In this document: positions 42,369 through 47,554 of the stretch, piece by piece
How the letters are laid out: every line of letters starts with the position of its first letter
Numbering within the stretch: position 1 is the first letter of the stretch
Source of the DNA: Roseomonas fluvialis
GTDB taxonomy: Bacteria; Pseudomonadota; Alphaproteobacteria; Acetobacterales; Acetobacteraceae
Length of the DNA stretch: 64,000 bases
Assembly (NCBI RefSeq): GCF_022846615.1
Contig: NZ_AP025637.1
Coordinates: forward strand, 5,357,001 to 5,421,000
Direction of reading: 5' to 3'
Made by a program: the position numbers and the translations under genes
The notes under the pieces: generated by a model
Seen by the model: the letters and a program-made list of their open reading frames with translations, nothing else
Databases searched by the model: none
What the model was told of the DNA's origin: nothing

Positions 42369-43022
42369 TTAGGCGGACCGGGTTCCCACCAGCTTCCAGG
42401 TGGGATCGGAGCCCGCAACGTCGCGCTGGAAGGTCCAGAGGTCGATGATCTCGGTCACAGCCTCGGCCCCCGCGGTGATCGACCCGTCGCGCGCGATGGT
42501 CAGGTTCACCTGGTCGGAGACGATGCGCACCGTGATGTCCGCGATGCTGCCGCGCAGTTCCGCTTCTTCGATCGCCATGTCCTGGATCGACCGCAGTTCC
42601 GTGCGCTGCGTCTCGCCGGCCGCCTCGCGCTGCGTGATGGCGCCTTCGAAGCCGCCATAGGCCTCGTCGGAGAGGAGGTTGCGCAGCGTCTCGCGGTCGC
42701 CGGCGGCGAAGGCCGTCACGATCATGCGGAAGGCGCCCTCGGCGCCCCCCAGGAAGGCGGCGGGGTCGAAGGCCGGGTCGACGCCACGGATACGCATCAG
42801 CGCCTGGCCCACCGGGCTGCGCTGGTCCGGCAGGCCACGGCGTGCGGCGCCCGCCGGGGTGGGAAGGGGCACGACGTCGGCCTCGCGCGGCTGGGGCGCA
42901 GGCACGGCCTCGGGCGGGCGCTCGAATCCGGTCCGGCGGCCGAGCACGCTGCGCAGGCGCAGCACCAGGAAGGCTGCAACCATCGCAAACAGGATCAGGT
43001 CGATCGGCAAGCCGCCAGTCAT
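42369..43022 (-). CDS. Tim44/TimA-family adaptor-like membrane protein
   Basis: A 217-residue protein. A single N-terminal membrane segment (IDLILFAMVAAFLVLRLRSV) is followed by a Pro-rich linker and a Tim44-like domain (about residues 75-215) with DPAAFLGGAEGAFRMIVTAF and a terminal IIDLWTFQRDV segment. The domain is related to the mitochondrial Tim44 C-terminal domain. In alphaproteobacteria it is thought to sit on the inner membrane as a scaffold or transport adaptor. It is upstream of mltA on the same strand. Confidence 0.88.
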   Translation of the reverse strand: MTGGLPIDLILFAMVAAFLVLRLRSVLGRRTGFERPPEAVPAPQPREADVVPLPTPAGAARRGLPDQRSPVGQALMRIRGVDPAFDPAAFLGGAEGAFRMIVTAFAAGDRETLRNLLSDEAYGGFEGAITQREAAGETQRTELRSIQDMAIEEAELRGSIADITVRIVSDQVNLTIARDGSITAGAEAVTEIIDLWTFQRDVAGSDPTWKLVGTRSA

Positions 43023-43196: not shown

Positions 43197-43754
43197 ATGA
43201 TCCTGCTCCGCCACGGACAGAGCGAGTTCAACCTGCTGTTCACCCAGACCCGGAAGGACCCGGGCATCGTCGACCCGGTGCTGACACCGCTTGGCCACGA
43301 GCAGGCGGCCGAGGCGGCGAAGATGCTCGCGACCGAGGATATCCGCCGCATCCTGGTCTCCCCCTATCGACGCGCGATCCAGACCGCGCTGCCCGCGGCG
43401 CGGCGTCTGGGCCTGAAGCTTACCGTGACCCCGCTGGTGCGCGAGCGCTATGCCTTCACCTGCGACATTGGCAGCCCGGCCACCGAACTGCGCATGACCT
43501 TCCCCGATGTCGACCTCGCGCACATCGACGAGGTCTGGTGGCCCCCGCAGGAGGAACCGGCCGACCAGGTCGAGGCCCGCGCCGCGCTGTTCCGCGCCGA
43601 GATGGCGGCGCTGGACGACTGGGCGCATACGCTGGTCGTCACGCATTGGGGCTTCGTGATGGCGCTGACGGGACTGAGCGTGGCGAACGGCCAGATCCTG
43701 CGGGTGGACCCGACCGAGCCCGCGCCGGCCCTGGTGCCCTGGAAACATCACTGA
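43197..43754 (+). CDS. histidine phosphatase family protein
   Basis: A 185-residue member of the phosphoglycerate mutase-like phosphatases. The RHG motif is at the start (ILLRHGQSEFN, catalytic His near residue 6). The second histidine lies in VVTHWGFVMAL, and arginines for phosphate binding are in VSPYRRAIQTA. The substrate could be a phosphohistidine, sugar phosphate or nucleotide. The start at 43197 gives the usual short lead to RHG; a longer reading from 43041 is not supported. Downstream is a 279-bp gap before the convergent gene. Confidence 0.88.
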   Translation: MILLRHGQSEFNLLFTQTRKDPGIVDPVLTPLGHEQAAEAAKMLATEDIRRILVSPYRRAIQTALPAARRLGLKLTVTPLVRERYAFTCDIGSPATELRMTFPDVDLAHIDEVWWPPQEEPADQVEARAALFRAEMAALDDWAHTLVVTHWGFVMALTGLSVANGQILRVDPTEPAPALVPWKHH

Positions 43755-43770
43755 TTTTCGGGGCCCTCAG

Positions 43771-43798
43771 GCGCCGGGCGCCGGGCGCCGGGCGCCGG
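43771..43798. repeat. four tandem 7-bp units (GCGCCGG) in the 43755-44033 gap
   Basis: GCGCCGG occurs four times in direct succession just downstream of the histidine phosphatase stop. The remaining gap to 44033 holds no convincing gene. It contains a GCCGGAGGC/GCCTTCGGC near-palindrome around 43930-43947, which could fold as a hairpin between the convergent genes. No U-run follows, so terminator function is uncertain. Confidence 0.6.
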
Positions 43799-44033
43799 CA
43801 TGCGCCGGCTTGGCTTTCGCGCCGTGCACCGGTGCCCTGGGCGCCGATGATGGGTGGGGCGCGGTCGCGCTGTGCGCTCCCGGATCGCTGCGCGATCCCC
43901 TCTGCCTGGACCCTCAGGCGCGTCGTGCCGGAGGCACGCCTTCGGCGTAACGCGCCGGCCTGCCTTGCGCGCCCGGATCTCGATGCGATCCATCTTGATG
44001 GCCCTCGGGCGCCGTGCGGCGCGACTGCGCGCG

Positions 44034-45215
44034 TCACGCGCCTGGTCGGCGGCTTTCGATCAGGCGGCCCTGGAACAGCGTGATCCCCATCTCCCAGCCC
44101 CAGGCGATGGCGGCCGGGCGATCCACGCCGGCCAGCACCACCGATTCGGGCGCGGCAGGCAGGGCGGCGCGCAGGGCCTCTGCACCCGGTGAGCCGAGCG
44201 CCGGCAGCGCATCCGACCAGCGCAGCCGCAGCAGGGCGGTGCCGGCGCGGGCCGGCGGCAGGGCCAGCACCGCACCGGGCACTGCCACGTCCAGCATGGG
44301 GCGGTGGCCGCGCAGCAGCAGCACCTCCCGCGCGAAGGCGAAGCCGGCGGGATCGGCGGCGATCTCCTCGGCGGCGATCGCGACGGTCAGCGCGCCGCGC
44401 AGCGCCGCCGGCCACATCGCATCCAGCCGCAGGAATTCCGGCGAGGTCACCGCATCCACGCCCAGCGTGAGCGACAGCGGGCCAAGGCCGCGCAATTCCT
44501 CGGCATGGGTCAGCCCGGCCAGCAGCCGTGCATCGATGCTGCGGCGGAATCGCCGCGCCAGCCAGGGCGCGCGCGCTGTGTCGCAGCCGGGCAGCAGCGC
44601 CGCGCAGACATCCTCGAGTGCGACGCGCCGGTCCTCCCAGACCGGATCGGGCGCGCCGCCGCCGGGCACCAGGCGGCAGACCTTGCGCCGCCGGACAAAC
44701 GAGGTGAGGTCGGCCGAGAGCAGCGCGCGCTCCGCCTGCCCGATCGTGGCGCCATCGGGGGCGCGGCCGCTGGCCGGGGCCGGCGCCGCGCGCATGGCGG
44801 CATCGAGGCCGAGCGCCTCCTCGACCGCCGCCAGCACCGCCGCCGCCTGGTCGGGCAAGCGAAGCAGCTCGATTGCGGCGGCTGCCTCCTGCGGGTCCAG
44901 CATGCCGGCGAGGACCTCGTGCGCCGAGGCCAGGTGATGGCCGGGCGCGCCCTCCACCGCGGCCAGGCCGGCCCGCGGCAGGTCGAAGACGCGGGTGCGC
45001 GAGGTGCGGCGCAGCCCGTCCCAGGCCTCGCGCAGCATCGCCAGGCGCGCCGGGCGCCGGTGCTGCGGCGATAGCCGCGCGGGGCGGAACACGAGCACGC
45101 GGCGCTCGACGCCGGCGGCGACGGTCTCGCGCACCAGGGCGGCCAGGCTGACCGCGCCCGCCGCGCCGGGCGGGGCGCCGAGCGCGCCGATCACCGGCAG
45201 GTCCGCGAGCATCAT
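44034..45215 (-). CDS. uncharacterised protein with faint EAL-like C-terminus
   Basis: A 393-residue soluble protein that I do not recognise with confidence. It is Ala/Leu/Arg-rich with no membrane segment or signal. The last 25 residues (AAIAWGWEMGITLFQGRLI) resemble the end of an EAL domain, where G-I-x-x-x-Q-G appears, but the E-A-L, catalytic acids and metal ligands are not visible. An ADLTSFVRRRKVCRLVPGG stretch near residue 165 may be the start of the same domain. If it is an EAL relative it is catalytically dead and might be a c-di-GMP sensor or scaffold. It overlaps the upstream gene by four bases (ATGA). Confidence 0.6.
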   Translation of the reverse strand: MMLADLPVIGALGAPPGAAGAVSLAALVRETVAAGVERRVLVFRPARLSPQHRRPARLAMLREAWDGLRRTSRTRVFDLPRAGLAAVEGAPGHHLASAHEVLAGMLDPQEAAAAIELLRLPDQAAAVLAAVEEALGLDAAMRAAPAPASGRAPDGATIGQAERALLSADLTSFVRRRKVCRLVPGGGAPDPVWEDRRVALEDVCAALLPGCDTARAPWLARRFRRSIDARLLAGLTHAEELRGLGPLSLTLGVDAVTSPEFLRLDAMWPAALRGALTVAIAAEEIAADPAGFAFAREVLLLRGHRPMLDVAVPGAVLALPPARAGTALLRLRWSDALPALGSPGAEALRAALPAAPESVVLAGVDRPAAIAWGWEMGITLFQGRLIESRRPGA

Positions 45216-46438
45216 GCCGGCACCATCGCACCGAGCAGCGCGGGGTTGGCGCAGCCGGCGCGACCCTCGGGCGTGGCGGCGGTGCCGCGCGTGGCGCAGG
45301 CGGCGCGCGTGCACCCCCCGCCCTGGGCGCAGCCGGCCATGCGGGTGGCCGCCATCACGGCATCGATCCAGGGACCGGCGAAACGCGCGACGCCGATCGA
45401 CAGGCCCCATTCCAGCGCGTCCTGGCCCTCCACGCCCTCCAGCACCAGGCGGGCGGGGTCGATGCGGCGTAGCGCGGCGCTGGCGGCCCGCCCGGCCAGG
45501 GCTGGCGACCAGGACAGTAGCAGCAGGTCGGTGGCCAGGGCCTCGGGCGAAAGCAGGGCCAGCGCGGCGGCATCGATCCCGCGTGTGGCGAGGCCCCAGC
45601 CGGCGTGGTGCAGCGCCGCGCGCCGCGCCGCGAGGCCCGGGGTGAGGGCCTCGGGCAGCGACAGGGTTGCGATCAATGCTGGGGCGCCGGGCGGGTCGCC
45701 CTCGATGGGCGCCGGGTCGGGCAGCAGCGCGGCGGGCAGGTCGAGCAGCAGCGGCACCGGCGCGGCCAAGCCGAGCAGCGCCTCGCGCCCCGAAGGCTCG
45801 GCCAATAGGCCGGGCAGGCGTGCCCGCAGGCGGTCCAGGGCATGGTGCAGCAGGTCGCGATCCTCGGCGGCGGGGCCGAGATGGCGGGCCAGCGCCGCCG
45901 CGGGCAGGCGCAGGCGCAGCAAGGCGAGGCGGCGCGGATGGCCGGTGGCGATATGCAGGATGCCCTCGCGCCGGAGCAGGGCGGGCAGCGGGGCGGCATT
46001 GGCGCGCGCCTCGATCCCGGCGGGCGGTGGGGCGGCGGGCGGGCGCGGCGCGGCGGGCACCGGCGCGGGCAGGTCGAGCAGCACCGGCACGGCGCCGGGC
46101 AGGTCGAGCCGTTCGGGCGCGGTGCCGAACAGGCGTAGCAGCGCGGCCTCGGCGCGGGCGGCGTCGGGGCCGTCGGCCTCGGTCAGCAGCAGGTCGCCGG
46201 TGGCGGTTTCGAGCAAAGTCCCGCCGCGCGGGCGGCCGGCATCCTCGAGCACGGCGAGCGCCACGCGGCGCGCGGCGTCGTTGCGCGGTGCTGGCAGGCG
46301 CAGCGCGACCCGGCCGGGCGGGCCGCGCAGGGCACGGCGGATGGCCTCGATGCCCGGGCCCGGCGGGGCACCGTGCAGCGCGGCAGGCGCCTGCGGCCCG
46401 GCCGCGGCATCGGCGGTGGAGAAGACCAGCGATCGCAT
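45212..46438 (-). CDS. uncharacterised protein, paralogue-like partner with faint EAL-like C-terminus
   Basis: A 408-residue protein, translationally coupled to the 44034-45215 gene. Its region before the C-terminus (LEWGLSIGVARFAGPWI) parallels the end of the downstream protein, so the two may be paralogues. The C-terminal 50 residues are Cys/Gly-rich (CAQGGGCTRAACATRG), with four cysteines that could bind a metal. Residues 40-115 may be a degenerate GGDEF-like domain, but no GG(D/E)EF is seen. Function unknown. It is divergent from the Tim44-like gene at 46595, across 156 bp. Confidence 0.6.
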   Translation of the reverse strand: MRSLVFSTADAAAGPQAPAALHGAPPGPGIEAIRRALRGPPGRVALRLPAPRNDAARRVALAVLEDAGRPRGGTLLETATGDLLLTEADGPDAARAEAALLRLFGTAPERLDLPGAVPVLLDLPAPVPAAPRPPAAPPPAGIEARANAAPLPALLRREGILHIATGHPRRLALLRLRLPAAALARHLGPAAEDRDLLHHALDRLRARLPGLLAEPSGREALLGLAAPVPLLLDLPAALLPDPAPIEGDPPGAPALIATLSLPEALTPGLAARRAALHHAGWGLATRGIDAAALALLSPEALATDLLLLSWSPALAGRAASAALRRIDPARLVLEGVEGQDALEWGLSIGVARFAGPWIDAVMAATRMAGCAQGGGCTRAACATRGTAATPEGRAGCANPALLGAMVPA

Positions 46439-46594
46439 CCCTGCATCCTGCGAGGGCGCGGCGGGCAGCCCGCGCGCAGGCCGCAGGATGGCGGCGGCGG
46501 ATGAAGGAAGGGTTTGTGCGATTCACCCCATCGAAATGACGCCCAGTTCATCTTATATTGCCTGGAACAAAACCCGCTGGAGACGTGACCCGAG

Positions 46595-47554
46595 ATGCGC
46601 CGACCCGCTTTCCTGCTGACCGCGATGGCCGCCCTGGCCCTGGTCCTGACGCCCGTGCTGGCCGAGGCGCGGCCAGGCGGCGGCGGTTCCTCGGGCAGCC
46701 GCGGCAGCCGCACCTATTCCGCGCCGCCGCCCACCCAGACCGCGCCGGGCGCCGCCCAGCGCATGGACCGCACGGCAACGCAGCCGGGCACGCCGGCCAC
46801 CACCGCGGCCGCGACGCGCCCCGGCATGGCCGGCGCCGCCGCGCCCAACCGCGGCTTCTTCGGGTCCTTCGGCGGCGCGCTGCTGATGGGCGGTCTGATC
46901 GGCGGCCTGCTCGGCTTCGGACTGTTCGGCGGCGGTGCCGGCTTCGGCGCCATCCTGGGCATGCTGCTGCAGGTCGCGCTGATCGGCGGGCTGATCTTCC
47001 TGGTGGTGCGTCTCGTGCGTGGCCGCCGGCAGCAGCCGGCGATGGCCGGCGGGCCGCAGGGCTATGCCTTCCAGGGCCAGCCGGAGCCGAAGCAGTTCGG
47101 CGGCGCGGGCGGCATGAAGGCCGCGCCGGCCGCCGCGCCGGTCGCGATCGGCCCCGAGGACTACCAGGGCTTCGAGCGCACGCTGGTCGAGGTGAACGCC
47201 GCCTGGTCGAAGCGCGATCTTACGGCCCTGCGCGCCGTGGCGACGCCCGAGATGGTGTCCTACTTCGCGCAGGACATGCGCGACCTCGAGGCGCGCAACT
47301 GGCGCAACGAGACGCGCGACGTGCGCCTCGAGCAGGGCGACCTGGCCGAGGCCTGGCACGAGGATGGCGAGGACTACGCCACCGTGGCGATGCGGTTCTC
47401 GCTGTTGGACGCGACCTTCGACAACGCCACCAACAAGGTGGTCGAGGGCAGCACGACGCAGCGCACCGAAGCGACCGAGGTCTGGACCTTCGTGCGCAAA
47501 GGTCCGGGCGGGCGCTGGATGCTCTCGGCGATCCAGCAGACCGCCGCAGCCTGA
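46595..47554 (+). CDS. Tim44-like domain membrane protein
   Basis: A 319-residue protein with a signal-anchor N-terminus (ALALVLTPVLAEARPGGGG), a Gly/Pro/Thr-rich segment, and two adjacent hydrophobic stretches around residues 95-140 (ALLMGGLIGGLLGFGLFGGG and LLQVALIGGLIFLVVRLVRG). The C-terminal Tim44-like domain covers about residues 185-315 (GFERTLVEVNAAWSKRDL, then RWMLSAIQQ). It is the second Tim44-like protein in the window and is unlike the first in its glycine-rich membrane region. It is followed by a good intrinsic terminator. Confidence 0.87.
   Translation: MRRPAFLLTAMAALALVLTPVLAEARPGGGGSSGSRGSRTYSAPPPTQTAPGAAQRMDRTATQPGTPATTAAATRPGMAGAAAPNRGFFGSFGGALLMGGLIGGLLGFGLFGGGAGFGAILGMLLQVALIGGLIFLVVRLVRGRRQQPAMAGGPQGYAFQGQPEPKQFGGAGGMKAAPAAAPVAIGPEDYQGFERTLVEVNAAWSKRDLTALRAVATPEMVSYFAQDMRDLEARNWRNETRDVRLEQGDLAEAWHEDGEDYATVAMRFSLLDATFDNATNKVVEGSTTQRTEATEVWTFVRKGPGGRWMLSAIQQTAAA

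Follow-up and report, generated by a model that had tools for sequence, protein, structure and literature searches.

A tandem pair of degenerate GGDEF-EAL proteins in Roseomonas fluvialis and its unnamed alphaproteobacterial family

Introduction

Degenerate EAL domains serve as receptors or adaptors, according to the available excerpts of two papers (PMC7288161, PMC5635695). The excerpt of the first describes LapD as a transmembrane receptor that binds c-di-GMP and FimX as a protein that retains c-di-GMP binding (PMC7288161), and in the available part of a third paper YdiV (STM1344) and STM1697, two EAL-like proteins of one genome, act on a common target via protein contact (PMC10100727). Dimers are common among EAL domains, and their formation shapes the site (available excerpt of PMC5301497).

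The two proteins described here, P1 and P2, are encoded by adjacent genes in a stretch of 64,000 nucleotides from R. fluvialis (NZ_AP025637.1, positions 5,357,001 to 5,421,000; the whole stretch that was analyzed is called the window), which belongs to a genome of 5.48 Mb with Roseomonas and Neoroseomonas as its named relatives. Like LapD (PDB 6pwj, 6pwk, and 3pjt), P1 and P2 combine a GGDEF-like with an EAL-like domain and have no intact catalytic set; unlike LapD, they show no transmembrane segment when their sequences are inspected by eye, and they have lost the ligand residues. FimX, a degenerate GGDEF-EAL protein adaptor and a near fold match to the pair, is a longer, multidomain single protein and not a tandem pair. 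YdiV and STM1697 are single EAL-like domains that are not tandem neighbors and whose target, FlhDC, is enterobacterial, and, unlike the pair, they have neither a GGDEF-like half nor a Cys tail. CsrD, a degenerate GGDEF-EAL protein working by interaction, is membrane bound, acts on Csr RNAs, and is not a pair; the relatives of P1 and P2 score far below the cut-off of the CsrD model. The canonical EAL phosphodiesterases RocR, PA3825, and PdeA have the barrel fold and the QPI and QG landmarks in common with the pair, but in comparison with these enzymes R179, D296, and E352 are absent family-wide, and the window pair lacks most other site residues.

Results

Gene pair

A first-pass annotation had reported a tandem pair of unrecognized proteins at this place, and the arrangement holds: both frames lie on the minus strand, overlap at an ATGA, and have coding-type G+C.

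45212-46438, minus strand: P1, 408 aa, a subfamily A pseudo-GGDEF-EAL protein with a four-Cys tail at its end, assigned from codon-position pattern, fold, tail, and place in the Cys-tailed clade
44034-45215, minus strand: P2, 393 aa, a tailless pseudo-GGDEF-EAL protein, probably of subfamily B, assigned from codon-position pattern and fold
45212-45215, minus strand: ATGA overlap of the P1 stop and the P2 start, suggesting translational coupling

The start codon of P2 sits within the stop codon of P1, and a stop-start overlap (ATGA or GTGA) was found in all 11 Roseomonas and Neoroseomonas loci checked. G+C contents by codon position (third position, 0.905 in P1 and 0.911 in P2; second position, 0.628 and 0.586, respectively) indicate that both frames are coding, and the coding-type pattern was absent from the long antisense frames and from the 5' extension of the P2 frame. 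A search of positions 43500 to 47000 against Rfam gave no match.

Predicted fold and sequence kinship

Structure prediction, which the first-pass annotation had proposed as a check, was run on both proteins and gave GGDEF-EAL folds, with no confident match to an unrelated fold. The model of P2, built from 20 sequences, had a mean pLDDT of 86.4 and a pTM of 0.79, and its best Foldseek matches were GGDEF-EAL didomains (MorA 4rnf, 3.7e-10; LapD 6pwj, 1.0e-9; PA0575 5m3c, 3.2e-9). The model of P1 (pLDDT 79.3; pTM 0.62), in which a low-confidence linker lies near residues 131 to 136, gave the same list at weaker values (4rnf, 1.0e-7). Upon structure alignment the EAL-like half of P2 reached its best Z with the EAL domain of LapD (Z 16.3; rmsd 3.3; 214 residues aligned), and P1 aligned with the EAL domain of PA3825 (Z 13.2; rmsd 3.7; 207 residues); by Foldseek and structure alignment of the models, the EAL barrel fold is present in both proteins. 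Across both domains, the P1 model reached a Z of 13.3 at an rmsd of 17, and two-domain alignments of the models with GGDEF-EAL chains gave rmsd values near 20, so that the domain arrangement either differs or is poorly predicted. A GGDEF-like (PF00990) N-terminal fold is present in the whole-chain models of P1 and P2, the high rmsd coming from domain placement. The domains were delimited as follows.

45959-46357, minus strand: N-terminal GGDEF-like domain of P1, residues ~28-160, from the secondary structure of the model and two-domain alignments to GGDEF-EAL chains
45347-46018, minus strand: EAL-like barrel of P1, residues ~141-364, from the structure match (Z about 13)
44811-45164, minus strand: N-terminal GGDEF-like domain of P2, residues ~18-135, from the model and the match of the family N terminus to a GGDEF profile
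44049-44753, minus strand: EAL-like barrel of P2, residues ~155-389, containing the conserved AWGWEMGITLFQG stretch

The C-terminal stretches on which the first-pass annotation had based its proposal of vestigial EAL-like ends exist in both proteins (...LEWGLSIGVARFAG... in P1 and ...IAWGWEMGITLFQG... in P2). The EAL kinship that it saw there stands, but the restriction to the ends does not, as each protein has a whole barrel plus an N-terminal GGDEF-like domain. P1 and P2 are degenerate didomain proteins of the GGDEF-EAL type without the full catalytic set, and the likeness extends over almost all of each protein. The GGDEF-EAL fold and kinship of the pair, taken alone, are in our judgment almost certain.

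At the level of sequence, P1 and P2 had no match in Pfam or NCBIfam and no useful match among PDB sequences; for the Pfam EAL family (PF00563) they fell below the gathering cut-off, with no match at all, and neither is among the six ordinary EAL places that exceed this cut-off in the window's genome. A match of the pair to seipin in a direct sequence search (E 0.67) was dismissed as chance. The relatives are closer to Pfam EAL: eight of eight distant alphaproteobacterial relatives match at a lenient E of <=10, and the one scored in detail, L038, matches at 1.3e-10 and passes the curated PF00563 gathering cut-off (41.5 bits versus 31.3). With these distant relatives, hhalign connected the orthologues of P2 (E 4e-35) and those of P1 (E 1.2e-15), and the two sets of orthologues matched each other in a profile-profile comparison (E 2.9e-14 over 297 columns), a likeness beyond chance. 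Pfam misses the pair because the sequences have drifted below its reach. When the C-terminal half of 59 relatives was compared with true EAL domains from the window's genome, it matched at 4.5e-7, compared to 0.7 for the reversed profile, and the N-terminal half of the family scored 21.3 against a GGDEF profile, compared to a maximum of 15.1 over 60 shuffled profiles. Taken alone, the N-terminal match is weak by its hhalign probability (5%); in the profile alignment, the conserved N-x-D-L of the relatives falls over the GGDEF loop, and a GG(D/E)EF motif is absent from the sequences of P1 and P2. The NCBIfam model of CsrD gave weak matches in five of the eight relatives (best, 1.9e-4); against its equivalog cut-off of 663 bits, L038 scored 15.5 bits, and P1 and P2 had no match.

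Distribution, subfamilies, and Cys tail

Matches at an E of <=1e-5 were obtained in 94 of 289 genomes sampled across the class; since four of the 94 best matches (6.8e-7 to 1.4e-6) resemble ordinary EAL proteins, the family is present in about 90 of the 289, roughly a third of the sampled alphaproteobacterial genomes. A phylum-level search over 299 genomes was positive in 7, each of them a member of the same class, the share of the 299 that came from other classes not being given. Relatives of P2 and P1 were found in 41 and 38, respectively, of 59 genomes searched (the window's genome counted). Genomes of the same genus have both genes, with few exceptions that are mainly fragmented assemblies, and P2 was found in all 35 of them (the window's included), some draft assemblies yielding partial matches. 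In one same-genus genome (G008:C82:27536-28692), the P1 relative is matched as two segments, an in-frame TGA interrupting one of them, and P2 is whole.

Outside Acetobacteraceae, two adjacent copies occur in 13 genomes. Subfamily A, the P1 type, is characterized by a four-Cys tail, C-x(4,5)-C-x4-C-x14-C; subfamily B, the P2 type, is single or lies directly downstream of A, and many lineages have B alone. The tail was found in 12 of 13 upstream copies, 0 of 13 downstream copies, and 0 of 33 single copies, and among the A sequences (12 plus 8 from Roseomonas) it was spaced C-x5-C-x4-C-x14-C in 17 and C-x4-C-x4-C-x14-C in 3. The Cys-rich end that had been noted for one of the two proteins is this conserved tail of fixed spacing.

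45251-45331, minus strand: Cys tail of P1, C-x5-C-x4-C-x14-C, residues 370-396, spacing counted from the sequence

In the family tree, the upstream copies form one clade (support, 97) and the downstream copies are interspersed with single copies, which makes A and B old paralogues. P1 joined the Cys-tailed clade at 97 in a tree from which P2 and several long rows were left out, and in which an 80% column filling rule should have kept the tail columns outside the tree. When P2 was placed without P1, it found no firm position, and grouping with clade A was not rejected (p 0.93); its best matches to B members together with the gene order suggest that it is B-type. The joining of Roseomonas P1 and P2 by long branches in the tree of all members was rejected as an artefact. 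The family, which the first-pass annotation had suspected to be new, is unnamed in Pfam and NCBIfam, and it is old. A literature search that covered few subscription journals found no paper on the pseudo-GGDEF-EAL family.

Active site

Site residues are numbered as in RocR, and K316, E268, and Q372 are taken as residues with roles in the EAL site. The roles of the other metal and catalytic residues follow the available excerpt of PMC7911125. Conservation outside Acetobacteraceae was counted over 12 A and 45 B members, with the fast pair L106 excluded. Q161, N233, E265, D295, and K316 were each present in 57 of 57 members, E175 in 56, and Q372 in 56 (one gap), and R179 was present in none of the 57. 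The E352 position was E in 0 of 59 members and the D296 position was G in 49 of 59, as read from a MAFFT alignment with true EAL domains; E175 and R179 were read from a separate alignment. A near-invariant half-site with the other half replaced points to a fixed half and not to random decay.

The set of an active EAL phosphodiesterase (E175, N233, E265, D295, D296, K316, and E352) is incomplete in the pair and in the family, and the site alignment of both thus agrees with the earlier remark that catalytic residues are not visible. In P2, the positions of Q161, E175, N233, E265, D295, K316, and Q372 are occupied by R, D, T, A, D, R, and Q, respectively, so that only D295 and Q372 are retained, plus an E-to-D change at E175. 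In P1, the residues at D295, K316, and Q372 are R, L, and A, the remaining positions not being reliably alignable; none of the alignable ligand or metal site residues is retained. A tandem pair from another bacterial family (L106, 3662-5979 in G065) has no Cys tail, and neither of its partners retains the half-site, which it seems to have lost independently by the same kind of decay.

A relative of P2 was found in 58 of 120 Acetobacteraceae genomes. Twenty of the 58 loci, chosen mostly for a listed upstream match, were read, and each of the 20 was a tandem pair in which the P1-like gene came first. When the half-site was scored as intact on N233, E265, D295, K316, and Q372, it was intact in both partners of one pair (L157), in P1 only in 10, in P2 only in 0, and in neither partner in 9; the 20 pairs are related, so that the split of 10 versus 0 does not represent independent events. 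One of the pairs, L161, comes from the same genome as L059, and in L147 P2 is interrupted by a stop, for which reason only its end was scored and the pair was omitted from the tree. The first branch within Acetobacteraceae in a tree of 34 joined pairs was L157, and the window's pair fell in a clade of 15 with neither partner intact (support, 100). The pair counts and the tree together indicate that the site was lost first in P2 and later in P1, and the loss in P1 probably happened more than once. The Cys tail was present in 18 of the 20 pairs; both tailless P1 proteins have also lost the site.

Genomic neighborhood

No constant operon partner was found among the neighbor genes examined. At 46 loci outside Roseomonas, relatives of RegB/RegA were near 13, hldE near 11, and BTLCP near 4, and at four of the 13 tandem pairs (L040, L041, L096, and L097) the neighbors differed from locus to locus. 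hldE is divergent and just upstream in three Acetobacteraceae loci (L059, L060, and L062) and is also next to relatives in other families (e.g., L038, L040, L098, and L126), which supports common descent of the locus.

The RegB/RegA-like genes (near L038, L039, L107, L109, L111, L114, L118, L120-L123, L126, and L131) are found no more than a few kb away, as a rule on the strand opposite to the family gene; domains were checked in one histidine kinase and one response regulator cluster member. At L111, L116, L128, and L129, the family gene adjoins BTLCP (Peptidase_C93) cluster genes and also genes of a second cluster, whose domains are Cache, PAS, and HD_5, the Pfam names having been read from one member per cluster (Peptidase_C93 in L116 and HD_5 in L128). 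The LapG protease, which is controlled by LapD, belongs to Peptidase_C93, and an adjoining gene of this protease family at 4 of the 46 loci is a point in common with LapD. These neighbors hint weakly that the family may be linked to adhesin release under c-di-GMP control. In the window, genes with Tim44-like domains flank the region (46595-47551 and 42369-43022), one of them divergent from P1.

Flagellin was found in 56 of 58 Acetobacteraceae genomes with P2 and in 43 of 62 without it, and among genomes of at least 3.5 Mb in 50 of 51 and 26 of 31, respectively (Fisher p 0.027). We do not rely on this link because genome size and kinship are confounders.

Discussion

Computation established the fold, the old A/B paralogy, the gene order, the loss of catalytic residues, and purifying selection. 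For the role of the pair, we favor, at roughly even confidence, the reading that P1 and P2 are a co-translated, probably heterodimeric pair of pseudoenzymes that acts by protein contact and derives from a non-hydrolysing nucleotide receptor. In this reading P1 and P2 are soluble paralogues made from one overlapping two-gene unit and, by analogy with EAL domains that commonly dimerise, may form a heterodimer, which fits co-translation, fixed order, and one-sided loss. An obligate heterodimer is not universal, however, since P1 drifts faster than P2 and is shortened or missing in some relatives. The ancestral pair would have bound c-di-GMP or a similar nucleotide via the kept half-site, without cleaving it. 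In Acetobacteraceae, loss of the site would have begun with the B partner and, in some lineages, the window's included, have reached the A partner later; the window pair would now be a ligand-free protein-contact module that binds another protein and regulates it, in the manner of YdiV/STM1697 or CsrD. That the site is lost while selection continues fits protein contact as the remaining role. The Cys4 tail of P1 may be held together by a metal (Zn or Fe-S) and serve in contact or sensing.

Among the alternatives, the one that survives best has the pair still acting as a c-di-GMP receptor, its barrel binding via nonclassical residues as some degenerate EAL receptors do; we regard it as unlikely, though as a serious contender. 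The fold is nearest to the EAL domains of LapD and FimX, the relatives outside Acetobacteraceae retain seven residues of the site (Q161, E175, N233, E265, D295, K316, and Q372), and GGDEF proteins are present in all 58 Acetobacteraceae genomes with the pair compared to 54 of 62 without it. However, this co-occurrence has genome size and kinship as confounders, R179 is missing family-wide, and P2 lacks Q161, N233, E265, and K316, while P1 lacks every alignable site residue. The proposal of degenerate c-di-GMP receptors in the first-pass annotation is thus not supported for the window pair, with no alignable site residue in P1 and few in P2, but is plausible for the relatives outside Acetobacteraceae with their constant half-site.

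It is quite unlikely that the half-site is an active site with an altered reaction or ligand (one metal or another nucleotide) and that the window pair is a relic of it. Near-invariance of the half-site in 57 members across many families is unlike free decay, but E352, the general base, and D296, the second metal ligand, are nowhere retained, and this explanation would not describe the window, where the pair has lost the half-site.

Still less probable, and in our view very improbable, is that the two genes are functionless, pseudogene-like leftovers in decay. dN/dS values (NG86, seven relatives) were 0.17 to 0.38 for P2 and 0.28 to 0.57 for P1, so that selection acts against amino acid change in both proteins, more loosely in P1. 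Besides this faster change, P1 is shortened in L059 and L062, and no P1 was seen in the interval from hldE to P2 in L060 (these three being some Plastoroseomonas and one other relative); the same-genus genome with the in-frame TGA points the same way. Against decay, nearly every genome has intact frames despite large divergence, P2 persists in all 35 same-genus genomes with a dN/dS well below 1, and the overlap is kept. That P1 and P2 are unrelated proteins with a chance EAL likeness at their C termini, as the lack of a direct family match for either might suggest, is contradicted by the independent structure models, Foldseek, and the profile comparisons, for which reversed and shuffled profiles served as controls, and can practically be dismissed.

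Beyond the preferred reading of a ligand-free contact pair, a broader proposal can be made, which we put forward as a conjecture with rather little probability as a whole: in an Alphaproteobacteria-wide family, the half-site would bind a nucleotide within an obligate A/B heterodimer, the Cys4 of A would supply an input from a metal or from redox state, and Acetobacteraceae would hold a graded series of losses. If the proposal is true, the Acetobacteraceae series would lead a signaling heterodimer from a receptor with both sites through a receptor with one site to a ligand-free scaffold.

Degenerate GGDEF-EAL proteins are known; the one described here is an unnamed family with a constant, partly kept site and a putative two-subunit form, in which every stage of the loss is represented by extant members and the same partner always comes first among the pairs read. 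Inventories of c-di-GMP proteins based on Pfam would overlook this family in Roseomonas-like bacteria. The family offers a testable question, namely, how an enzyme or receptor becomes a pure interaction protein and whether one subunit is released first.
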